In this document: in pieces, positions 3,378 through 41,033 of the stretch
Layout: each line of letters opens with the position of its first letter
Position numbering within the stretch: position 1 is the stretch's first letter
Assembly: GCA_026388275.1 (NCBI GenBank)
Contig: JAPLKB010000042.1
Coordinates: forward strand, 1 to 64,000
DNA length: 64,000 bases
Direction of reading: 5' to 3'
Source: Pseudomonadota bacterium
Lineage (GTDB): Bacteria; Desulfobacterota; Syntrophorhabdia; Syntrophorhabdales; Syntrophorhabdaceae
The notes under the pieces: model-generated
Told to the model about the DNA's origin: nothing
Database searches by the model: none
What the model saw: the letters and a program-made list of their open reading frames with translations, nothing else
Made by a program: the position numbers and the translations under genes

Positions 3378-4364
3378 TCATGATTTCTTTGATGCATCTC
3401 TTCTCTTTTTCAAGAGAGAAGATGCAGTTGTGAAACGGTAGAAATAACCGGTAGGATCGTCCAGGCTTTCAGTGAGCTTCTTCCTGTCTTCCTCCGTATC
3501 TGCTTCTATTATTGAAGCAAAGGCCGAGAGATATTTTGCGCCCATGTCTGCAATACCTTCAACAGGTCCAAAACAACCTCTGCAAGGGATGTTTGTTTTT
3601 ATGCAGGTTTCCCCGCATCCCGACCGCGTTGCAGGCCCTGTACAGACTACCCCCTGAGCAAGAAAGCATTTTTCAGGGTCGGCTTCAATTTCATGTATCC
3701 TCTTGATCTGAGATATGGCAAGGCGATCAGGTTTTGTTTTGTTCCTTTCGCAAAGATCACATAATGCCCTTTCAGGTGCCAGAGTTGAGCCCTTCGGCGG
3801 CAGATCCCCTGCTATCGCAGCGCTTACTGCATTATATATCAGGTTTGGCGGCGGTGGACATCCGGGAAGATAATAATCAACATCTATTATCTGATTCAAT
3901 GGATACACCTGTGTGTAAAATTCCGGGAGTGTTAATTCATAACCGGTCGTGTTTGAAACAGGCTGTGGAACATTGTGTTTGGGGTTAACAATTGTCGGTG
4001 CATCTTCATAAACCCACTGAAAGATATCTTCCTTACTCCTTAAGTTTGCCATGCCGGGCGTTCCTCCAAAACATGCACAGGCGCCGAAGGAAAGTATAAG
4101 CTTGGATTTCTTTCTCAAAAGGTGGGCCATTTCCTCATGTTCCGAGTTTCTTACCGAGCCGTTTATGATGCTCAAAGTGATTTCTTTATCTTCCATTGCC
4201 TCGATATGATGATATTTAAAGTCGAGCGCAACAGGCCAGAGGACTAAATCAAAGGCGTTTGTCACCTTGAGGATATCTTCATTCAGGTCAACGATAGCCT
4301 CATCGCATCCGCCGCATCCGCCGAACCAACATATCGCTAATTTAGGTTTATCTGCCATTTTCAT
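3378..4364 (-). CDS. mvhG: NiFe hydrogenase small subunit, MvhG-like
   Basis: A 328-residue Fe-S subunit. The N-terminus carries the proximal-cluster motif CWFGGCGGCDE. The C-terminal third is rich in cysteines (CDLCERNK, then CFLAQGVVCTG, GCGETC and PCRGCFGP), consistent with three [4Fe-4S] clusters that pass electrons from the active site to the MvhD domain of the neighbouring fusion protein. There is no twin-arginine signal, so the enzyme is cytoplasmic. The gene overlaps the upstream fusion gene by 4 nt and is separated from mvhA by 9 nt, indicating translational coupling. Confidence 0.9.
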   Translation of the reverse strand: MKMADKPKLAICWFGGCGGCDEAIVDLNEDILKVTNAFDLVLWPVALDFKYHHIEAMEDKEITLSIINGSVRNSEHEEMAHLLRKKSKLILSFGACACFGGTPGMANLRSKEDIFQWVYEDAPTIVNPKHNVPQPVSNTTGYELTLPEFYTQVYPLNQIIDVDYYLPGCPPPPNLIYNAVSAAIAGDLPPKGSTLAPERALCDLCERNKTKPDRLAISQIKRIHEIEADPEKCFLAQGVVCTGPATRSGCGETCIKTNIPCRGCFGPVEGIADMGAKYLSAFASIIEADTEEDRKKLTESLDDPTGYFYRFTTASSLLKKRRDASKKS

Positions 4365-7009: not shown

Positions 7010-9709
7010 ATGGATGAAATAAAATTGTCATTCAACGGACGTGAAGTAAACGCCAGGAAAGGGCAGACAATTCTTGAAGCAGCCCTTATGAACGGAGTTG
7101 ACATCCCTTATCTTTGTTATCATCCAAGAGTAAGCAAGACAGGTGCATGTCGAATGTGTATTGTTAAAGTAAATGATGTGATGCTTAAAACGGCCTGTAC
7201 AGAACCTGTCATGGAAGGCATAAAGGTTGTTACGGAAGACGAGGAGATCATACAAATAAGAAGGGGTATTCTGGAATTGCTCCTTGCAGAAGGGGACCAC
7301 AACTGTCTTTACTGTGATGCAAATGGTGAGTGTGAGCTACAGGCTCTTGTTTATAAATACGATATACAGCAGACTGCTTACGAATATCCGAAACGTGCAA
7401 GGGAAATAGACTACGAATCAAGTGAAGGCTTAAAGAGAAATGAAAACAGGTGTGTTTTATGCGGGAGATGTGTAAAAGCCTGTAAAGAAATTCAACTTTC
7501 CAATGTATGGGATTTTACCGATAGAGGAAGTCACACCCATCTTACATCAGGTCTTTTTGAAAAGATCGGCGACTCAGAATGCGTGAAGTGTGGAACGTGT
7601 GTCCAGTTGTGTCCCACAGGAGCCCTTTCATTTCAGACAGTTCTTGGCAAAGGCCATGCATGGGAACTTACAAAAGAGTCAAGCATCTGCATATATTGCG
7701 GGGTAGGCTGCAAAATAGATTTCTATAAAAACAAGGAAGGTCTGCTGGTTAAGACCATGGGGAACGAGGACGGCCCGAACAAGGGGCATTTGTGCGTAAA
7801 GGGGAGGTTCGGATTTGACTTTGTCCAGAGCCCCAAACGGCTTACAAAACCGCTTATAAAGAAAAATGGCAAGCTTGAAGAAGCAAGCTGGGACGAAGCC
7901 CTTGACCTGGTTGCAAGCAAATTCACTGAAATAAAAGAAAAGAGTGGCCCCGATTCTCTTGCAGCATTGTCATCTGCGAAATGTACGAATGAAGAAAATT
8001 ATCTTATGCAAAAATTCATGAGGGCAATGATAGGTACGAATAATGTAGACCACTGCGCCCGGCTCTGACACAGTTCCACCGTCGCCGGTCTGGCGGCAGT
8101 GTTCGGTTCAGGAGCGATGACAAACTCTATCCGTGAAACACCACTTTCCGAAGGATTTCTTGTGATAGGATCAAACACAACAGAAAACCATCCTGTTCTT
8201 GGTTCAATGATAAAAAAAGAAGTAATCAATCAAGGCAAAAAACTGATTGTAGCTGATCCTCGTAGGATTGAGCTTTCAAGATATGCAGATTATTATTTTC
8301 AAATCAAGCCGGGTACGAATATAGCTATTCTTAACGGTTTTATGCACGTGTTAATTAAGGAAGAGCTTTTTGATAAGGAATTTATTGAAACACGTTGCGA
8401 AGGTTTTGACGCAATGGCTGCAGCGCTTGAGAAATATACCCCGGAATATGTTGCAGAGATTTGCGGGATTGATAATCCAGAAGATATTGTAAGTGCTGCT
8501 CATCTTATGGCTAATTTAAAACCTATGGCCCTTTATTATTCCATGGGCATTACCCAGTTCATCTCAGGTGTCAATGGCGTAAAGTCTACGGCAAACCTCC
8601 AGATGTTGCTCGGCAACATGGGTGTTCCAGGCGGAGGAGTCAATCCGCTACGCGGACAGAACAATGTTCAGGGTGCATGTGATATGGGCGCTCTCAATGC
8701 GGTGTATCCGGCATATCAACCTGTTGCCAATGAAGATAATAAGGCGAAATTTGAAAATTTCTGGGATGCGACAGGTTTATCTCTCAAACCAGGGCTGACA
8801 ATTGTGGAAATGTTTAACGCTGCTATAGAAGGAAATCTGAAGGCTGTTTACCTCATGGGCGAAAACCCCATCATGTCCGACCCGAATCAGCACCATGTTA
8901 TAGAGGCCATTGAATCGCTTGAGTTCTTTGTTGTCCAGGATATTTTTCTTACTGAAACCGCTCAATACGCTGATGTGGTATTCCCGGCATGTGCTTTTAT
9001 TGAAAAAGAGGGTACGGCAAGCAACACAGAAAGAAGGGTGCAGCCTATGCACAAGGTACTTCCGCCGCCAGGAGATGCAAAGGACGATTGGTGGATTATT
9101 ACACAGTTGGCAAACCGAATGGGCGCCAAATGGAACTATTTAAAAGCAGAGGACATTTTTGAGGAGATCAGAAAGGTAACGCCTTCTTATGCCGGAATCA
9201 CATATGAAAGAATCGAAAAGGAACTGATACAATGGCCGTGTCCTACTGTTGAACATCCTGGAACGCAGTTTCTCCATAAAGATAAATTTTCACGAGGGCT
9301 GGGCCTTTTCACAGCTATTGATTATACACCCCCTGCAGAAGAAACCGATCCGGAATATCCTGTGATACTAACCACCGGCCGTTTACTTGAACATTTCCAC
9401 ACAGGCACAATGACGAGGAACTCAAGAATACTTGATGAAATAGTACCGGAAGGGTTTGTTGAGATGAACCCTAATGATGCAGAAAACTATAATATTACAG
9501 ACGGCGAGATCATTTCAGTCTCTTCAAGACGCGGCAGCATAAGGATAAAGGCAAAGGTGACAGGAAAAATAAAGCCGAATACTGTTTTTATCCCCTTTCA
9601 CTTCTATGAAGCAGCTGCGAATAAGTTAACCATAGACGCCCTTGATCCTACCTGCAAGATACCGGAATATAAGGTATGTGCATGCAAGATTGAAAAAATA
9701 TACATGTAA
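7010..9709 (+). CDS. fdhA: Selenocysteine-containing formate dehydrogenase, catalytic subunit with NuoG-like N-terminus
   Basis: One 899-residue selenoprotein read through an in-frame TGA at 8066-8068 (residue 353). The context DHCARL-Sec-HSSTVAGLA is the formate dehydrogenase active-site signature, and the frame is unbroken on both sides. Domain order: NuoG-like [2Fe-2S] (CYHPRVSKTGACRMC), His/Cys cluster (HNCLYCDANGEC), two ferredoxin clusters (CVLCGRCVKAC, CVKCGTCVQLCP), the molybdopterin Fe-S site (CIYCGVGC...LCVKGR), bis-MGD catalytic domains and a C-terminal pterin-binding domain. It oxidises formate or reduces CO2. Cytoplasmic, with no TAT signal. It forms an operon with the NuoE-NuoF fusion and FocA. 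Strong ribosome site AAAAGGAG. Confidence 0.95.
8066..8110 (+). promoter_or_regulatory. Bacterial SECIS element directing selenocysteine at UGA 8066-8068
   Basis: Immediately 3' of the TGA the RNA can fold with a stem around the loop GGUCU (core GCCGGUCUGGC): nine paired positions with one mismatch (accgtcgcc against ggcggcagt). An apical GGUCU loop is also what I remember of E. coli fdhF. It should be bound by SelB. No sel genes are in this window. Confidence 0.85.
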
Positions 9710-33847: not shown

Positions 33848-33895
33848 ATTGGTGGGCCGTGGAGGATTCGAACCTCCGACCAATTGATTAAGAGT
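33848..33895. repeat. attL: 48-bp copy of the tRNA-Lys 3' region
   Basis: Identical over 48 bp to 40955-41002 (it begins attggtgggccgtggagg). It contains the T-arm and acceptor 3' side of the tRNA but not the 5' half, so it is a tRNA fragment and not a gene. The match ends where attR continues into the complete tRNA. Confidence 0.9.
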
Positions 33896-34011
33896 GAATA
33901 ACATATGTAATATCAAATAGTTATGGTGTTAGATGCTGTTTGCTCCTGCTTGCAGTTATGGAAAAAAGGATATACCGATATAGACGGTATTACCCCTTGT
34001 TTGACGGTTTC

Positions 34012-34030
34012 AGTTCACAGTTAGTTCACA
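34012..34030. promoter_or_regulatory. Left-arm integrase-type sites (two AGTTCACA)
   Basis: AGTTCACA occurs at 34012-34019 and 34023-34030, 11 bp apart and about 120 bp inside attL. The same octamer occurs twice inside attR. Tyrosine integrases of this class bind such short arm-type repeats on both sides of the core. Confidence 0.5.
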
Positions 34031-34197
34031 GGTAAAATTTATATTTTTACTTGTCATGGGTTGTAAACAAAACCGTGTCCATTGATTTTCGCAGTTTGAA
34101 GTTGTAATCTTTTTCAAGGGATAGGCAGCGCAGCCGATAAGGGGACTTCTCAAACCCCTTCCCTTGAATTTTTGAGAAACCACGATGAGAGGTGGCG

Positions 34198-34947
34198 ATG
34201 GAAAAAGAAAATAGAGATGATAGAGTTTCTTTCAGTTTTAAAAATATCAATAATCCAAATATCGGTTATGCAGCGGGGTATTCACCACCAACTCAATGGG
34301 ATAACGGCGAACATTGGTTAGATTTAACAGAAACCCCGAAGATGTTCCCACATTTTTACCATAAAGAAGCATGGCAGATATTTTACGATAACGCAACATT
34401 TGACGATATTCTTGTTGCAGCTGTTGGGGAAAACATTCTTGATGTAATGCATCGGGAAGGGCTACCGGACTTTGACGACCATAAAAAATGGACAGATAAA
34501 AAATTCCTTGAAGAACTTAGCCGATATCCTGATTGGCTTCAAATGATAGAGACAGGAGCCTTAGACAGATTTATCTTCATGATGAAAACTGCGGGGATAG
34601 CCAACAGTAAAAAAGCAGAACAGGTTTGTAATAATTTGAAGTATTATTTTATCCCGAAACGACCAGGAGGGTCTAAGGTCTACCCGGTTAATCTACATGG
34701 CTGTTATTACCTGCTTAAAATGTTATCGAAACATATCTCGAAAAAGTGCAACGAGTTTATAAAAGCCGGAGATAATCTTGATCGACAATCTTTTCAAGAA
34801 TATACTGATGAAAGCCGGGTTACAGATATTTCTGTGTATGATTTGGACATCCTCCTATCACAACCAACTCAATACGCAAAAAAACTACTTGAAAAAGAAT
34901 TATACGTCAGCATGGAAAGTCTGAAAAAAGAACTCAAAAAAGGGTAA
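34198..34947 (+). CDS. Unknown satellite cargo protein next to attL
   Basis: A 249-residue soluble protein that I do not recognise. It is rich in aromatic and charged residues (QWDNGEHWLDLTETPKMFPH, then HREGLPDFDDHKKW). No membrane segment, signal peptide or known catalytic motif is evident. Start at ATG 34198, with GAGAGG ahead, rather than GTG 34192. It lies alone between attL and the replication operon, the position where satellites commonly carry accessory genes such as anti-phage functions. That role is only inferred from position. Confidence 0.6.
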   Translation: MEKENRDDRVSFSFKNINNPNIGYAAGYSPPTQWDNGEHWLDLTETPKMFPHFYHKEAWQIFYDNATFDDILVAAVGENILDVMHREGLPDFDDHKKWTDKKFLEELSRYPDWLQMIETGALDRFIFMMKTAGIANSKKAEQVCNNLKYYFIPKRPGGSKVYPVNLHGCYYLLKMLSKHISKKCNEFIKAGDNLDRQSFQEYTDESRVTDISVYDLDILLSQPTQYAKKLLEKELYVSMESLKKELKKG

Positions 34948-35018
34948 ATTAAAGTTTCTATTTAACCTTTCTGTATGTTTATCAAAACACTATCATATTG
35001 TATGCTTTCCTTACAACA

Positions 35019-35044
35019 TAATGTAATACCCTAATATTACATTA
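35019..35044. promoter_or_regulatory. Perfect 10-6-10 inverted repeat upstream of the replication operon (operator candidate)
   Basis: Arms taatgtaata / tattacatta around ccctaa, ending 26 bp before the ATG at 35070. A CCTTACA heptamer (35009-35015) lies just before it. Position and symmetry suit a repressor-binding site controlling the replication genes. Confidence 0.5.
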
Positions 35045-35069
35045 TTATTTACCGGTAAGGAGCACGACT

Positions 35070-35339
35070 ATGAAAACTTTTTCAACCTTAGACATCTATT
35101 TATCTTCATTCCTTTTTCTTAATGGTGAGGAACCCGACCTTACAATCAAGAACAACAAAGTGGCTTTCAATTTCGATGCCAATGATAATGTTTACCGACT
35201 CATGGCAGAATTCAACACAAACCCGGAAATACCTTGTCTTGATCTGATAACGGCAATAAAAACGCTTAGAGGAAAGATGCTTTCAGCTAAAGAGAGCATA
35301 ACTGGAAACGGTGGACGATATGGATATAATCACAGATAA
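35070..35339 (+). CDS. Small satellite protein of unknown function
   Basis: An 89-residue hypothetical protein starting with a strong GTAAGGAG site. The N-terminus is hydrophobic and polar in turn (LDIYLSSFLFLNGEEPDL), with a core VAFNFDANDNVYRLMAEF that suggests a small alpha/beta fold. It overlaps the start of the primase-helicase gene by about 20 nt, so the two are translated together. Small proteins placed like this in mobile elements are often primase accessory factors, but nothing in the sequence proves it. Confidence 0.65.
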   Translation: MKTFSTLDIYLSSFLFLNGEEPDLTIKNNKVAFNFDANDNVYRLMAEFNTNPEIPCLDLITAIKTLRGKMLSAKESITGNGGRYGYNHR

Positions 35340-37023
35340 CGGGCAAACCGGATTTACAAAAAATGAAAATGAGTCTTTTTTACGTCGTGCTCTTGAATAT
35401 CAAAAAATGGGTTTTTCAATAATTCCATTAAGAATCGACAAAACGCCACACATTAAATGGGAAGCTTTTCAAAAGCAAAAAGCAAAGATCGGAGATGTTA
35501 CAGGTTGGTGGAAAAAATGGACTGATGCTAATATCGGCGTCGTGACAGGGTCTATATCCGGGCTTGTTGTGGTTGATGTCGATGATATGAAGATCGGGCT
35601 TTCAGAGCTTGCAAAGGTAATCCCGGTAGGCATTGAAACACCAACAGCGCAAACACCTTCAGGCGGACTACACTTTTATTTTAAACATCCGGACAGAAGA
35701 ATCGAATGCAATAGAAAAACTATTCCGGGTTGTGATTTTCAAGGCGATGGGGGCTACGTCGTTGCACCGCCTTCGTATTGTGAGTATATAAAGCATGGCA
35801 AGGATATAAAGGGTTCTTATACATGGGTTAAATCCCCTGATGATTGCACCTTTGCGCCTTTGCCTGAAGCATATATAAATGCATTTGATTCTTTTAATAA
35901 TAATTCTTTATATAAGGGTGGTAAGGTTGACACCTTACAACACCTTACAGACCTTACAGAACCTTACAGATATTTCATTGAAGGCCGCAGGGATGAGGAC
36001 ATTTTTCGTATTGCCAATGCACTTGTAAAGGCCAATTGTGCACCCGGTATTATACAGCATGTGCTTAATATACTTGCACTTTCTTGTGATCCACCTTTTC
36101 CTGAAAAAGACATTAATGCGAAAATTCAGTCAGCTTTACAGCGCGCGGCGCGACGTGAAAGAAACCTTTTGGAAGAAATTAGGACGTGGTGGACCTTACA
36201 AGAAGGTTACACAGACCTTACAAATATGAAACAGACCTTACAACTCCTTACAAAGGAAGAACGGAACCATGCTGATGTCATAATTCACAGACTCAAGGAG
36301 GAAGGTTTCATTGAGAAGTACGGTAACAAAGCAGGCGTTTATCGCCGTGTTGACAAGGATTTTGAGCGTGTCGACTTTCTCAGTGCTTCAGGAAGAGAGA
36401 CAAATATTAACCTACCGCTTGACTTAAACGACCTTGCAAAACTATACGCCGGAAGCATTATTGTCGTTGCCGGTAGCAAAGAGGCAGGCAAAACCGCGTT
36501 CCTTCTAAATATCGCTTTAGCTAATTTGGGTAAAAAGCGCATTGTTTATCTCAATTCTGAAATGGGAGAGGACGAGTTGAAAAATCGCCTTCTAAATTTC
36601 GGCAACGTAAAACTTGAGACCTGGGCGGAAAAAATGGAAGTATTCAGGCTAAAACCGACGCAGACCCCGGCGGACTTTATTGACGGATCGGACACTATCT
36701 GGATTGTAGATTATCTCGAAATTGCAGAGGACTTCTCAAAGATAGCCCTTCCTATAGCTCATGTTCACGGAAAGTTAGGAAATGGCCTTGCCTTTATCGG
36801 CCTACAGAAGGCAGATGATAAAGAGATAGGACGCGGGGCCGACTTCAGTAGAGAAAAGGCGCGCTTGTATATTTCTCTTGATTGGGATTCGGAACGCCGA
36901 CAGAATCGGATAAAAATTATTGATTGTAAGGCATGGAGAGACAGGAACCCGCGCGGGCTTTACAGATATTACAAATTGGTAAAGGGGGCTGGCATTATTC
37001 CACAAGGGAATTGGCAGGAATGA
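35320..37023 (+). CDS. Primase-polymerase (Prim-Pol) fused to a RecA-like helicase
   Basis: A 567-residue replication protein. Residues about 15-190 are a bifunctional Prim-Pol domain: GVVTGSISGLVVVDVDDM carries catalytic aspartates, TPSGGLHFYF and GGYVVAPPS are family motifs. A helical PriCT-like region (RDEDIFRIANALVKANC) follows, then a short winged helix, then a RecA/DnaB-like ATPase with Walker A VVAGSKEAGKTAFLLN and Walker B TIWIVDYLE. It should prime and unwind the element's own DNA. ATG 35320 preferred over GTG 35311. The linkers on both sides of the PriCT region are encoded by arrays of CCTTACA repeats. Confidence 0.85.
   Translation: MDIITDNGQTGFTKNENESFLRRALEYQKMGFSIIPLRIDKTPHIKWEAFQKQKAKIGDVTGWWKKWTDANIGVVTGSISGLVVVDVDDMKIGLSELAKVIPVGIETPTAQTPSGGLHFYFKHPDRRIECNRKTIPGCDFQGDGGYVVAPPSYCEYIKHGKDIKGSYTWVKSPDDCTFAPLPEAYINAFDSFNNNSLYKGGKVDTLQHLTDLTEPYRYFIEGRRDEDIFRIANALVKANCAPGIIQHVLNILALSCDPPFPEKDINAKIQSALQRAARRERNLLEEIRTWWTLQEGYTDLTNMKQTLQLLTKEERNHADVIIHRLKEEGFIEKYGNKAGVYRRVDKDFERVDFLSASGRETNINLPLDLNDLAKLYAGSIIVVAGSKEAGKTAFLLNIALANLGKKRIVYLNSEMGEDELKNRLLNFGNVKLETWAEKMEVFRLKPTQTPADFIDGSDTIWIVDYLEIAEDFSKIALPIAHVHGKLGNGLAFIGLQKADDKEIGRGADFSREKARLYISLDWDSERRQNRIKIIDCKAWRDRNPRGLYRYYKLVKGAGIIPQGNWQE
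35933..35968 (+). repeat. Iteron-like array 1 (four CCTTACA) inside the primase gene
   Basis: CCTTACA begins at 35933, 35943, 35952 and 35962, about one helical turn apart. The copies occupy three different reading frames (codons acc-tta-caa, ctt-aca, cct-tac), so the DNA word rather than the protein is repeated. Confidence 0.7.
36194..36252 (+). repeat. Iteron-like array 2 (four CCTTACA) inside the primase gene
   Basis: CCTTACA begins at 36194, 36216, 36236 and 36246, with spacings of 22, 20 and 10 bp that keep helical phase; a variant GGTTACA lies at 36205. Together with array 1 it is a candidate replication origin of the element. Confidence 0.65.
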
Positions 37024-37047
37024 ATAATACAAAAAGAGGTGAAATGA

Positions 37048-37395
37048 ATGGAAAACATTAGTTACAAAGACATGGATGTTATCGGCGGCGAAGAAGTTAG
37101 AATATCAAGGGAGCAGAATCTCTACCCGGATATGCAGAACGGGCAGCACTTTACAACTCTTGAAGCATTGCCGGGCTATCTTGCCGGACAGATCAGCACG
37201 TCAAGCAATCCGACAGTGACAATGCAGCATCTTTCCGAACAGCTACTACAGGGCGGCCTTATGATGCCGCAGGAGTATGTTCGTTTCCAAACTCTTACCA
37301 ATGAGATGAAGGCAGCAAACACAGACGAAAGCAAAACCGAAATTCTGAAAAGAACAACAGTTTTCTTAAACGGGCTACGGCCTAAAAAAATTTAA
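37048..37395 (+). CDS. Unknown satellite protein (115 aa)
   Basis: A 115-residue soluble hypothetical protein with a good AGAGGTGA ribosome site, 24 bp after the primase-helicase. It is acidic at the N-terminus (YKDMDVIGGEEVRISREQN) and helical at the C-terminus (FQTLTNEMKAANTDESKTEI). No recognisable domain, no cysteines, no membrane segment. Its place between the replication gene and the terminase-like gene is where satellites keep packaging-interference or capsid-resizing genes, so it is worth testing for that, but there is no sequence evidence for it. Confidence 0.65.
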   Translation: MENISYKDMDVIGGEEVRISREQNLYPDMQNGQHFTTLEALPGYLAGQISTSSNPTVTMQHLSEQLLQGGLMMPQEYVRFQTLTNEMKAANTDESKTEILKRTTVFLNGLRPKKI

Positions 37396-37407
37396 AGGGG
37401 GTTTCAC

Positions 37408-37983
37408 ATGGAAGATGTTTTAAAAAGGATTGAATCGACTTTGGCCTCATCAAATGCAGCCGGTAATCTTGCAGGGTTTGCAGAGGACAGGACAGAAACA
37501 GAGAAAACAAAATCTGATATTGAATCTGATATTTTCTTACTTCAGGCAGACCATAAAACTCTATCCGATTCCCTCAGTTCTGCTACAGATGAAAAAGAGA
37601 TCGACGAAGGGACCTTAAAGCTAATTCAGATTGAGAAGAAGATTGCACTTAAAACAGAGAAACTACCGGCTTTAATTGCATCGTTGGCAGAGACCGAACG
37701 ACAGGAAAAAGAATACAGGTTAGCTCACAAGCTCGATGCTGATTTATGGCGGCCCGTCCGGGAACCGATTCAACAGCAGGCGGCGGTGTTGCATCACAAT
37801 CTAATAAAGGCGTTGGAAGCAATAAACGATTTTGATAGTGAAATTTACAAACTCTTCCACAAGTACAATGCAAGCCCGAACAAGTCAGAGCTTGAAGCTA
37901 TGCTCATGACTTTTATCGGTCCTAAAACCGGCTTTTATATTGATTTGGTGCCTGTTCACGATAAGCGCAAAATGACAGAGTAA
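37408..37983 (+). CDS. Unknown coiled-coil satellite protein (191 aa)
   Basis: A 191-residue hypothetical protein that is mostly alpha-helical, with long heptad-like stretches between about residues 25 and 100 (ETEKTKSDIESDIFLLQADH, LIQIEKKIALKTEKLPALI). This suggests a coiled coil and oligomerisation. A more globular C-terminus follows. Strong ribosome site AAAGGGGG. A scaffold- or capsid-size-like role would fit a satellite, but so would many others, and the sequence gives no specific motif. Confidence 0.65.
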   Translation: MEDVLKRIESTLASSNAAGNLAGFAEDRTETEKTKSDIESDIFLLQADHKTLSDSLSSATDEKEIDEGTLKLIQIEKKIALKTEKLPALIASLAETERQEKEYRLAHKLDADLWRPVREPIQQQAAVLHHNLIKALEAINDFDSEIYKLFHKYNASPNKSELEAMLMTFIGPKTGFYIDLVPVHDKRKMTE

Positions 37984-37996
37984 GGAGGATAACATT

Positions 37997-38206
37997 ATGA
38001 AAACAATCACATTTCTAACAGAAGTAAGGCAGCATGGCAAACAGGGTCATAGATTTGCAGGTTCAGCTTTATCAAAATACAGACTTTGTACTTTTGGCAG
38101 ATCGTTAGAGAGAAGTGATGAGCCTTACGGGGAAGTGGTTATTCCGATTAAGATGGTGGAAGAGCAGGGCTATCCAACAAGTATAACATTGAATTTTGAG
38201 AAGTAG
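37997..38206 (+). CDS. Small basic satellite protein (69 aa)
   Basis: A 69-residue protein rich in basic residues near its N-terminus (FLTEVRQHGKQGHRFAG), followed by predicted beta strands (GEVVIPIKMVEE). It has a textbook TAAGGAGG ribosome site 8 nt before the ATG and sits 13 bp after the coiled-coil gene and 8 bp before the terminase-like gene. No family recognised; a small nucleic-acid-binding protein is a reasonable guess. Confidence 0.6.
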   Translation: MKTITFLTEVRQHGKQGHRFAGSALSKYRLCTFGRSLERSDEPYGEVVIPIKMVEEQGYPTSITLNFEK

Positions 38207-38214
38207 GGGGTAAC

Positions 38215-38763
38215 ATGCAACGTGTCAATGATGATGAACTTTTAAAAATGCTTGACGATAAGATACCACAAAAAGATATTGCAAAGCACTTTGGGGTGTC
38301 AAACGGTTGGATTACAAAACGCAAGCAGTTATTGCAGACGCCAGAACCGGAAAACTTTTCAAAATTGACTGAGCAGCAAAGATGTTTTGTTATTGAAAAG
38401 GTTAAAGGCCGAAGCAATGTTGATGCGGCTTTTACTGCTTATAACGCCACATCAAGGGATAGTGCTCGAAATATCGCTTCTGACTTGATGCAGAAGGATG
38501 AAATAAATTTATCAATCCGGGAATTAATGGAAAACCACGGGTTGACAAGAATCTATCGCATTAAGAGGCTTAAACAACATGTTGACAATAAGTCTCCTGA
38601 TATTTCCCTGAAAGCATTACACCAGTCATGGCAGTTAGGTGGGGACTATGCGCCAACACAAACTAAGAATCTCAACCTCAATGTAGATGTAATCCCGGAG
38701 TTAGATCAAGCACTGATTGAAAGATTCAGGATAAAGCCTATTTTACCTGATGAAAATGAATAG
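38215..38763 (+). CDS. Terminase small subunit-like protein (TerS)
   Basis: A 182-residue protein. Residues about 1-45 form a helix-turn-helix (IPQKDIAKHFGVSNGWITKR). About 55-120 follow the pattern of phage small terminases: LTEQQRCFVIEKVKGRSNVD, then AAFTAYNATSRDSARNIASD and LMQKDEINLSIREL. Small terminases recognise the packaging site and recruit the large-subunit motor. No large subunit is encoded in the element, so it would have to redirect the motor of a helper phage, as satellite TerS proteins do. Similarity is by motif only, and a plain DNA-binding regulator is the alternative. Confidence 0.65.
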   Translation: MQRVNDDELLKMLDDKIPQKDIAKHFGVSNGWITKRKQLLQTPEPENFSKLTEQQRCFVIEKVKGRSNVDAAFTAYNATSRDSARNIASDLMQKDEINLSIRELMENHGLTRIYRIKRLKQHVDNKSPDISLKALHQSWQLGGDYAPTQTKNLNLNVDVIPELDQALIERFRIKPILPDENE

Positions 38764-38855
38764 CGCGTTGGGAAGGGGATATACGATGGAGGGCGAAAAG
38801 TTAATTTTCCCCCTCCCCCCCCTCGATCCGTGACACCCCTAAAGGAGGTTTTGAA
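38764..38855. other. C-rich tract after terS, possible packaging site
   Basis: The 92-bp gap contains an unusual pyrimidine run (ttttccccctcccccccctc at about 38804-38823) followed by cgatccgtgacacccc. Composition is unlike the rest of the element. Phage cos or pac sites lie next to terminase genes, which is the only reason to suspect one here. Confidence 0.3.
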
Positions 38856-39125
38856 ATGATGGATAATATTGAAGATGTTTGCAGTTATTATTATAAGTGT
38901 GAAGTAAACATATGCCCGCTTGACCCTGGTATAGCTGACAGGAATTATATTTCAGGTGAAAAGGTATGCAGGAAGATTCTTGATTACCTCGAAGGCAAAC
39001 CGACAAAACTCGACGAACAGATACGAAAAACAGAACATATCTGGAAAGCAAAGTACGGGAAGAAACTCGAAGCACGTTTAAATAGTAGAATGCAGATAAG
39101 AGAAGCATTCAGAAAGGCAGTTTGA
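38856..39125 (+). CDS. Small cysteine-containing satellite protein (89 aa)
   Basis: An 89-residue hypothetical protein with three cysteines near the N-terminus (CSYYYKCEVNICPLD) plus one in EKVCRKIL, possibly a small metal-binding site, and a helical C-terminus (IRKTEHIWKAKYGKKLEARL). The ribosome site AAAGGAGG is strong. It lies between the terminase-like gene and the excisionase-like gene. Not recognised. Phage and satellite genomes carry many such short Cys-containing proteins with unknown roles. Confidence 0.6.
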   Translation: MMDNIEDVCSYYYKCEVNICPLDPGIADRNYISGEKVCRKILDYLEGKPTKLDEQIRKTEHIWKAKYGKKLEARLNSRMQIREAFRKAV

Positions 39126-39210
39126 AAGCGTCATACAGCAGTCATTGTTTCACATTGTGAGTATGACATGACTATTAGTATTCATGACAATTTGAGGTCA
39201 TAGAAAGGAT

Positions 39211-39501
39211 ATGAAAACCATACTTGAACCGGAAGATATTCAGGCAATAGCTGAAAAAGTTATTGAACTTATCCGGCCTTTATTATCACAAAATAAGCCT
39301 TCTGAATCCATTATGGATAAGAAAGGTTTATCTGAATATCTTCAAGTTGACGTTTCATGGATTGACAAGAACCTTTACCAATTGCCGCACTTCAAGGCCG
39401 GGAAGTATGTCCGATTCAGGCAAGTCAACATTGACAAGTGGATAAACAGTATTGAAAAGACCCCTTTACCTTATCTTAAATTGTTGAAAAATAACAGGTG
39501 A
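39211..39501 (+). CDS. AlpA/excisionase-type helix-turn-helix protein
   Basis: A 96-residue DNA-binding protein. The second half matches the MerR-like excisionase/AlpA fold: MDKKGLSEYLQVDVSWIDKN, then FKAGKYVRFRQVNIDKWI, where the final RFR..DIDKWI pattern is typical. A predicted helix at the N-terminus precedes it. Such proteins act as directionality factors that turn integrase towards excision and as activators of integrase genes. It is encoded about 350 bp before the integrase, behind an AAAGGAT ribosome site. Confidence 0.75.
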   Translation: MKTILEPEDIQAIAEKVIELIRPLLSQNKPSESIMDKKGLSEYLQVDVSWIDKNLYQLPHFKAGKYVRFRQVNIDKWINSIEKTPLPYLKLLKNNR

Positions 39502-39597
39502 ACCCTTGATTGTAAGTCAAATTACTGTAAAAAAGATACTTATAAAATCAGGTATTTACAATGCAATGTGAAGTGAATTGTGAACTCAATATTTTAC

Positions 39598-39626
39598 TTG
39601 ACTTCTAACTATGTTAGATATATAAA
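39598..39626 (+). promoter_or_regulatory. Promoter of the XRE repressor with an operator dyad in its spacer
   Basis: TTGACT (39598-39603), 17-bp spacer, TATAAA (39621-39626). The spacer contains the perfect dyad TCTAAC-tat-GTTAGA (39604-39618). Transcription should begin near 39633, at or next to the ATG at 39634, implying a leaderless or nearly leaderless mRNA and repressor autoregulation. Confidence 0.55.
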
Positions 39627-39633
39627 TATGATT

Positions 39634-39879
39634 ATGGATGCTTGGACACCAGAAAGGATTAAAGGATTGAGAAATAGATTTAATTTATCTCAAGTGGCTT
39701 TAGGCGGGCTTACCGGTGTATCAGGCAATTATATCTGGATGTTAGAAGGAGGTGATAAAACTAAAAAGCCGTCAAAAACACTGTGTCTGTTGTTAGATCG
39801 TATTGAAAAGGAATTACAGGAAAATGAAAACGAAAAGGAGGTTATGAGACATGGCACGAAAGATAAAAGGTCTTTATAA
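39634..39879 (+). CDS. XRE-family (Cro/CI-like) transcriptional repressor
   Basis: An 81-residue helix-turn-helix protein (81 codons from ATG 39634; ATG 39628 is also possible). The HTH is WTPERIKGLRNRFNLSQVAL, then TGVSGNYIWMLEGGDKTKKP. No ribosome site precedes either ATG, but a promoter with an operator-like dyad ends just before it, so translation may start at the mRNA 5' end. The 3' end overlaps the integrase gene by 29 nt. Likely the maintenance repressor of the element, controlling its own promoter and perhaps the operon at 35070. Confidence 0.75.
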   Translation: MDAWTPERIKGLRNRFNLSQVALGGLTGVSGNYIWMLEGGDKTKKPSKTLCLLLDRIEKELQENENEKEVMRHGTKDKRSL

Positions 39880-40933
39880 ACGTGGTAATGTCTGGTGGTG
39901 CTGTTATAAGGATTTAACCGGGAAGATTGTCCGGGAAACAACAAAGCACGCGGATTATGACAAAGCGGTAGAATTTCTCACAGAAAAAAAATTCAATGTT
40001 CAAAGAGGAATAGAACCTGAAGTTATTCAAAATATCAATTATACCTTTAAGGAGCTTGTTGTTGAATATCTGAAATGGTGTGAAAGACAACGGAGCTTTG
40101 ATAGTAAAAAGATATTCATAAAACAATTGCTTGATGCTTTCGGACATATGCCTTTGAAGAATTTCAACACCATGATGGTTGAACAATTCCAGACAGATCG
40201 TATTCAAAAAGGAAACAAACCGGCTACAGTCAACAGGCTTGTTGCTACACTGAAACATTCATTTACAAAGGCTTATGACTGGAACATGATAACCGAAACA
40301 ATATTGAAAAAGGTAAGAAAGGTGAAGCTTCTGGAAGAAAATAACCGGCGACTGCGTTATTTATCAAAAGAAGAATGTCAGGCCTTAGTAAATGCCTGTG
40401 ATGCTCATTTAAAGCCGATTGTTATTACAGCATTAAACAGCGGTTGCAGGAAGGAAGAAATATTAAGCTTGAAGTGGGATCAGATAGATATGAAACATGG
40501 TTTTATTCTGTTAGATATAACAAAGAACGGCGAAAGAAGGGAAATTCCTATCAATGGCACTTTGCGTACTACCTTTGAAGCATTACCTCGAAGGCTTGAC
40601 GGCGGTTATGTATTCTTTGATCCAAAGAACGGCGCAAGGTATCAGGAAGTCAAAAGGTCATTTGCTACAGCATTGAGAAAAACAGGAATAAGAGACTTTC
40701 ACTTTCACGACCTTAGACATACCTTTGCTTCACATCTTGTTATGGCAGGCATAGATTTAACAACAGTTTCAAGGCTTTTAGGACACAAAAGCCTTGCAAT
40801 GACTTTGAGATATTCACATTTATCACCACAACATTTCACAAAGGCGGTTGACGTACTCGACAACGTTTTAAATGATAATTTTAATTCCACTTCACATTTA
40901 GTTCACAATCAAAGGATAGTTCACAATGGCTAA
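39851..40933 (+). CDS. int: Tyrosine recombinase / integrase of the element
   Basis: A 360-residue phage-type integrase. An N-terminal arm-binding region (KIKGLYKRGNVWWCCYKDL) and a SAM-like core-binding domain precede the catalytic domain, with Arg in NSGCRKEEIL, the box HDLRHTFASHLVMAGIDL and LLGHKSLAMTLRYSHLS carrying the active-site Tyr. The ribosome site AAAGGAGG lies inside the repressor gene, which it overlaps. The stop is 21 bp from attR, and its last codons hold two AGTTCACA arm-type sites. It integrates the element into tRNA-Lys. Confidence 0.95.
   Translation: MARKIKGLYKRGNVWWCCYKDLTGKIVRETTKHADYDKAVEFLTEKKFNVQRGIEPEVIQNINYTFKELVVEYLKWCERQRSFDSKKIFIKQLLDAFGHMPLKNFNTMMVEQFQTDRIQKGNKPATVNRLVATLKHSFTKAYDWNMITETILKKVRKVKLLEENNRRLRYLSKEECQALVNACDAHLKPIVITALNSGCRKEEILSLKWDQIDMKHGFILLDITKNGERREIPINGTLRTTFEALPRRLDGGYVFFDPKNGARYQEVKRSFATALRKTGIRDFHFHDLRHTFASHLVMAGIDLTTVSRLLGHKSLAMTLRYSHLSPQHFTKAVDVLDNVLNDNFNSTSHLVHNQRIVHNG
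40900..40925. promoter_or_regulatory. Right-arm integrase-type sites (two AGTTCACA)
   Basis: AGTTCACA at 40900-40907 and 40918-40925, within the last codons of int and about 30 bp from attR. They mirror the pair at 34012-34030. An inverted copy (TGTGAACT) lies at 39570-39577 before the repressor promoter. Confidence 0.5.
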
Positions 40934-40954
40934 TGCTCATAGATGGTTGATTTT

Positions 40955-41002
40955 ATTGGTGGGCCGTGGAGGATTCGAACCTCCGACCAATTGATTAAGA
41001 GT
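40955..41002. repeat. attR: 48-bp core repeat in the intact tRNA-Lys
   Basis: Identical to 33848-33895. It covers the 3' half of tRNA-Lys, including the anticodon loop edge. Insertion keeps the tRNA complete at this end. Confidence 0.9.
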
Positions 41003-41033
41003 CAACTGCTCTGCCAGACTGAGCTAACGGCCC
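40957..41033 (-). tRNA. tRNA-Lys (CTT anticodon), integration target
   Basis: Complete cloverleaf with encoded CCA: acceptor GGGCCGT/ACGGCCC, D-arm GCTC...GAGC, anticodon loop CTCTTAA (anticodon CTT), T-loop TTCGAAT. The element's attR lies in its 3' half, and a truncated copy is at 33848-33895. Confidence 0.95.

Follow-up and report, generated by a model that had tools for sequence, protein, structure and literature searches.

The replication initiator gene of a 7.1-kb integrated element most likely contains the origin at which that initiator acts. Within its coding sequence lie eight exact copies of the heptamer CCTTACA in two helically phased arrays, and we propose that these are iterons to which the encoded protein binds through its winged helix and which together form a bipartite replication origin. 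The proposal draws on comparative sequence analysis: many homologues, in viruses and elements of both bacteria and archaea, carry arrays of other heptamers at the same two places, the array words are conserved as DNA, and the heptamer covaries with residues of the predicted recognition helix. The second array appears to be written into the very domain that would read it.

The integrated element and its initiator

The window, by which we mean the whole 64,000-nucleotide stretch analysed, contains an integrated element at 33848–41002, bounded by a 48-bp exact direct repeat of the 3′ part of tRNA-Lys; attL occupies 33848–33895 and attR 40955–41002, the latter overlapping tRNA-Lys (40957–41033). 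Pfam and PHROG matches identify a terminase small subunit (38215–38763, + strand) and a tyrosine integrase (39851–40933, +), and a family search of the ORFs adds a weakly matched HTH protein. A gene for a DUF5659-like protein of 89 aa (35070–35339, +; E = 6e-5, just under Pfam's cut-off) is followed by the initiator gene (35311–37023, +), the product of which combines a Prim-Pol domain, a helix bundle (PriCT-like), a winged helix and a RecA/DnaB-like ATPase. The element is a site-specifically integrated island with integrase, replication and small-terminase genes, as in PICIs and phage satellites, in which the small terminase is often present. A search of ten ORFs revealed no further structural gene, so it is likely to be a phage satellite. 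An integrated element in a related genus (L238, 6404–13663) has an integrase-like ORF and a Prim-Pol gene with nine CCTTACA that is preceded, as read by eye, by a DUF5659-like ORF as in the window; an ORF resembling a phage major capsid protein was also noted there by eye.

Pfam places the Prim-Pol domain (PF09250) in the initiator with E = 9.9e-30; its match to a DnaB-type ATPase is weak and falls below Pfam's cut-off. With a family profile, the Prim-Pol part matches structures of ORF904 of pRN1 and the ATPase part matches DnaB helicases. An AlphaFold2 model built from a 43-row alignment (mean pLDDT 89, pTM 0.50; residues numbered from the ATG at 35320, 567 aa) comprises the Prim-Pol domain to around residue 171, a low-confidence stretch at 196–215, a helix bundle at 224–279 (35989–36156, +), and a RecA-like ATPase. 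The model also has helices at 283–293, 300–306 and 312–327, then two short strands, which we read as a winged helix (residues 283–343; 36166–36348, +) with 312–327 (36253–36300, +) as its predicted recognition helix. The initiator has no Pfam match to PriCT-1 or PriCT-2, and the helical bundle is present in the AlphaFold2 model. Among the 50 matches listed in a Foldseek search against solved structures, most concern the ATPase (KaiC, DnaB and RadA) and none is informative for the winged helix. The lambda O family is absent among the Pfam and PHROG matches of the element's ORFs.

Two phased arrays of CCTTACA within the gene

The eight + strand copies in the Prim-Pol gene begin at 35933, 35943, 35952, 35962, 36194, 36216, 36236 and 36246. 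Their start-to-start gaps of 10, 9, 10, 232, 22, 20 and 10 bp define two arrays in helical phase, in agreement with the spacing of about 10 or 20 bp recorded in an earlier note on this DNA. Array 1 (35933–35968, +) consists of four exact copies. Array 2 (36194–36252, +) contains the other four together with two degenerate in-register sites, read by eye, at 36205 (GGTTACA) and 36226 (TGAAACA), so that it can be described as six places about 10.5 bp apart. All three reading frames are represented, also within array 1 alone, and the argument made from this, that repetition in the protein is insufficient to explain the copies, holds: when synonymous codons were permuted with the protein kept, none of 500 shuffles brought the top heptamer of the gene to eight copies (mean count 3.3, largest 5). 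On both strands, the whole window holds 16 CCTTACA against 6.4 expected, a total reached in 0 of 100 shuffles.

A genome-wide count had been suggested as a check. The pattern CCTTACA-N(2-16)-CCTTACA occurs six times in the 3.5-Mb host assembly, each time in the Prim-Pol gene, compared with one occurrence of a reversed-pattern control. With no close CCTTACA pair elsewhere in that assembly, no second host element with the same iteron was found, and the Prim-Pol protein itself has a single match in the host genome, with no further copy. Two single copies lie outside the arrays: one at 35009–35015 (+), upstream of the DUF5659-like gene, adjoins an 11-bp inverted repeat (35018–35028/35035–35045), as had been noticed earlier, and a tenth at 35138–35144 (+) falls within the DUF5659-like gene. 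These two copies may represent an autoregulatory site.

The domain boundaries of the AlphaFold2 model assign the arrays to different kinds of coding sequence. Array 1 is predicted to encode mostly disordered linker (residues 196–215), whereas array 2 is predicted to encode part of the winged-helix DNA-binding domain, starting in the last part of helix 1 and running into the beginning of helix 3 (residues ~292–311), with the helix bundle between them. The view that both arrays occupy weakly constrained linkers is thus retained for array 1 and, on the model, given up for array 2.

Arrays in homologous genes

Single-protein scans of the viral and genome collections recovered no relative; alignment queries did. 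Two genome sets were searched, 60 related genomes and 395 from the phylum, and each gave a match in 12 genomes, the host's own among them. Further homologues were drawn from viral contigs, named genome contigs and a phage collection that includes the archaeal virus MetMV. A gene was taken to carry an array when its heptamer count was reached in at most 1 of 200 protein-preserving shuffles. The 101 distinct full-length homologues belong to viruses and elements of bacteria and archaea; by this test 54 of them have significant in-gene arrays and 47 do not. Arrays are also significant in 9 of 28 distinct homologues without an in-frame Prim-Pol domain. Unrelated ORFs of the same contigs passed in 2 of 188 cases, those with fewer than four copies of their best heptamer being scored negative without shuffling. 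A similar repeat density in unrelated genes, one of two findings that the earlier note had named as fatal to its inference, is therefore not seen.

The 63 array-bearing genes use 44 distinct best heptamers, some of which represent one word shifted by a single base. AGTCACA, CGCAACA, GACCACA, GTCTACA, GACTTCA and further words occupy the same two places, and many heptamers share the 3′ end ACA. CCTTACA itself was found in one other homologue of the first set (L003), in nine copies, with a protein 47% identical. Helical spacing is general: 288 of 351 gaps fall in the ranges 9–12, 15–16, 19–22 or 29–32 bp, the commonest being 9–11, 20–21 and 30, and the two arrays usually lie 232–234 bp apart, a value that a helix bundle of constant length would be enough to fix. 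GACCACA occurs with similar recognition helices in the archaeal virus MetMV (L027) and in the bacterial or uncultured viral elements L019, L046, L047 and L100.

A cluster search over the whole of 37 loci without clear in-gene arrays found several with a cluster in the first linker only and many with none. Other arrangements were also encountered. L053 has four TGTTAC-type repeats (3922–3980) at or just upstream of the start of the Prim-Pol gene rather than mid-gene, and its origin may have moved. Desulfovibrio-type and similar loci (L141, L144, L146, L147 and L080) have many GTCAAC-like repeats (CGTCAGC in L080) concentrated in a single part of the gene rather than in two arrays, with serine at residue 319. 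On a Chloroflexi contig (L154), a CCTTACA/TGTAAGG-type cluster at 7522–7801 lies downstream of the Prim-Pol match, almost 2 kb away.

The arrays are conserved as DNA

Where homologues share a heptamer, the words appear to be held at the nucleotide level. Among 25 same-heptamer pairs, array-2 codons are identical in 128 of 131 cases in which the residue is the same, compared with 2274 of 5443 (42%) elsewhere in the gene; among 381 pairs with different heptamers, identical codons make up 569 of 815 (70%) in array 2 and 27149 of 72150 (38%) elsewhere. In array 1, L001 and L003 keep the CCTTACA words and differ in the linker protein, which is the opposite of the second finding named as fatal, a linker protein conserved without its DNA repeats. 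Having survived both, the inference of initiator-binding repeats and of a putative origin inside the initiator gene is supported by these comparisons.

AT-rich DNA accompanies the arrays

The 60 bp preceding array 1 (35873–35932) are 77% AT against a gene mean of 58%, and 35873–35915, directly upstream of the array, is a candidate unwinding element. This composition goes with the arrays across the family. At residues 181–195, the AT excess over the gene mean is +0.118 in array-bearing and +0.001 in array-less homologues (p = 6.5e-6), and between the arrays, at residues 251–265, the two groups differ by 0.065 (p = 9.5e-6), 12 genes of intermediate array significance being left out of the comparison. 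Neighbouring segments at 231–275 trend likewise and the remaining segments have no comparable difference; within the helix-bundle DNA, residues 241–265 form an AT-enriched stretch in array-bearing homologues. In the window itself, the DNA between the arrays is not strikingly AT-rich. Several direct, replicon-specific repeats in helical phase with an adjacent AT-rich region are among the usual marks of an iteron origin, and their position inside the initiator's coding sequence is the lambda O arrangement. The arrays and the AT-rich DNA together are most likely the origin.

The arrays might be bound by the winged helix and yet act in autoregulation, copy control, partition or incompatibility instead of as the origin, which we regard as unlikely. 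The outlying copies at 35009 and 35138, one of them beside an inverted repeat upstream of the operon, would suit autoregulation, perhaps as an additional role. However, the arrays begin more than 600 bp into the gene, the AT-rich stretches that accompany them are confined to array-bearing homologues, and two iteron sets around an AT-rich region form the layout of PICI origins as outlined in PMC6092414.

The heptamer covaries with the recognition helix

If the winged helix reads the iterons, changes in the heptamer should follow changes in that domain. In 29 genes, for which the heptamer register was assigned partly by hand from the coding frame, the further apart two iterons are in sequence, the further apart are the winged-helix segments that follow array 2 (r = 0.45, p = 0.0002), and this remains so given the ATPase (r = 0.40, p = 0.0005). 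ATPase distance served as a control; the permutation tests model descent incompletely. There is no significant correlation with Prim-Pol domain distance (r = 0.01). For the helix bundle, r = 0.21 falls to 0.07 (p = 0.20) when the winged helix is controlled for; for the ATPase, r = 0.25 becomes a weakly positive 0.12 (p = 0.046).

These values bear on the idea that the heptamers are not duplex iterons but single-strand template sites for primer synthesis, read by the Prim-Pol domain or helix bundle in the way of GTG for pRN1 ORF904 or TTTGGTTA for NrS-1. Its appeal lies in the shared protein class, in the 8-base recognition site plus GTG of NrSPol, which the helix bundle is said to bind in the excerpted text of PMC8718748, and in the ACA end common to so many heptamers. 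Yet the covariation tracks the winged helix and neither the Prim-Pol domain nor, once the winged helix is controlled for, the helix bundle, and the helical phasing of the gaps fits binding to duplex DNA; we consider template sites very unlikely. Ordinary protein repeats or codon bias, to which the LT..LT..LT-like protein repeats yielded by array 2 might point, are rejected as the cause of the arrays by the three reading frames, the protein-preserving shuffles, the codon identities and the control ORFs, and have next to no chance of being correct.

The case for iterons bound by the winged helix can be taken to single residues. In a scan of 463 alignment columns, residues 316 (0.55; 36265–36267) and 319 (0.40; 36274–36276) score highest outside array-coded codons, against a 99% null maximum of 0.39 from a null that omitted columns 288–316; residue 323 (36286–36288) covaries weakly (0.27, not significant). 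Given their i, i+3, i+7 spacing, we read residues 316, 319 and 323 as lying on one face of the predicted recognition helix.

Proteins with identical C termini were left out of the new loci. Of 89 distinct new genes, 35 meet an automatic array rule and 54 fail it; removal of L126, identical to L018 of the training set, left a final independent set of 34. In these genes, again outside array-coded codons, the leaders are residues 316 (0.49), 312 (0.46) and 319 (0.39), with a 99% null value of 0.39; residue 312 directly follows the last iteron, and its signal may mirror the next base.

Five heptamer–residue predictions were fixed before the 34 genes were tested, and one failed. GTC and S319 occur together in 12 genes, with one exception each way (p = 3e-7). 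Arginine is present at residue 319 in 4 of 4 genes with CG (p = 0.007), although 7 of the 11 R319 genes start otherwise; a class broader than CG for R319, defined by G as the second base, was picked after the new data were known. N or H at residue 319 goes with GACC or AGTC in 2 of 3 (p = 0.016). For TTA or TAA, histidine is found at residue 323 with 4 of 8 such words and such a word in 4 of 5 H323 genes (p = 0.007). The prediction that failed paired G323 with AA at bases 4–5 (0 of 4). As to exceptions among the residue-319 classes, AGTCACA goes with N, one GTC word goes with W and one with A. In the 30 closest pairs of different heptamer class, both members are as expected in 21, one in 9 and none in 0 (permutation p = 5e-5), the post hoc second-base-G class being among the classes used.

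Discussion

We infer initiator binding, melting, helicase loading, priming and origin activity along the following lines. Several initiator molecules would dock through their winged helices on the two phased arrays, all from the same side of the duplex. The resulting strain would open AT-rich DNA ahead of array 1, between the arrays or in both places. The RecA/DnaB-like ATPase would load a helicase or act as one, and the Prim-Pol domain would lay the first primer.

With less assurance than for the present gene, but still on balance in its favour, we suggest that this is one instance of a virus-borne replication cassette widespread in bacteria and archaea, with a two-part origin in the initiator gene, array 2 within the domain that reads it and a word that two or three residues of the recognition helix partly predict. 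The specificity of the origin would evolve, and could be exchanged, as a self-contained segment of ~400 bp. With array 2 written into its own DNA-binding domain, each change of the origin word would rewrite part of that domain. If this is correct, the protein sequence alone could show where origins lie, and in part which words they use, across many uncultured phages, archaeal viruses and satellites. The family would supply initiators and iterons matched by nature, with which to study how winged-helix specificity changes, a clear case of a DNA signal that constrains the protein reading it, and candidate minimal replicons for hosts that lack plasmids.

Origins within the initiator gene are familiar from the phage-plasmids N15 (repA) and P1 (repL), in which the initiator families differ from the Prim-Pol one here. 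In lambda gene O and gene 18 of P22 and L, the origin likewise lies in the initiator gene, and in distant relatives that place is taken by repeats of another sequence (PMC7466680, PMC5043065, PMC8022706). The likeness to lambda O and its lambdoid relatives is that of initiator-bound iterons mid-way in the initiator's own gene. As those sources outline them, however, lambda iterons are nearly perfect inverted repeats of ~19–20 bp, bound by O dimers, in one group and with another initiator family, whereas the words here are asymmetric, 7 bp long and set in two arrays ~233 bp apart in the gene of a Prim-Pol/winged-helix/ATPase protein.

The pri-rep-ori region of PICIs, as outlined in PMC6092414, has two iteron sets around an AT-rich region beside a primase/initiator, in some cases with a small terminase, and PICIs share with the present element the two iteron sets, AT-rich DNA, primase/initiator and site-specific island. 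The PICI origin, however, is placed there immediately 3′ of the rep gene, whereas the arrays described here are inside it.

Among Prim-Pol initiators with PriCT or winged-helix domains, ORF904 of pRN1 similarly joins Prim-Pol, helical domain, ATPase and winged helix, and in the PrimPol-PV1 supergroup the winged helix has been proposed to recognise the origin (PMC4234260, PMC5862659). By the account in these sources, pRN1 requires an iteron-free stem-loop located downstream of the gene, and its protein has an SF3 helicase and a C-terminal winged helix; in the present initiator, by contrast, the winged helix precedes a RecA/DnaB-like ATPase. The NrS-1 primase-polymerase is likewise a phage Prim-Pol protein; it has a helix bundle and is specific for a short DNA word, but that word is a primer start site, and the excerpted text makes no mention of in-gene phased arrays (PMC8718748). 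Among the papers listed in literature searches, none was recognisable from its title or abstract opening as describing in-gene origins or iterons of Prim-Pol initiators, and those listed for MetMV were unrelated. Against these systems, four features seem new: the class of protein involved, a bipartite phased layout maintained in viruses of both bacteria and archaea, an array 2 that overlaps its own reader, and the partial code by which the words are read.
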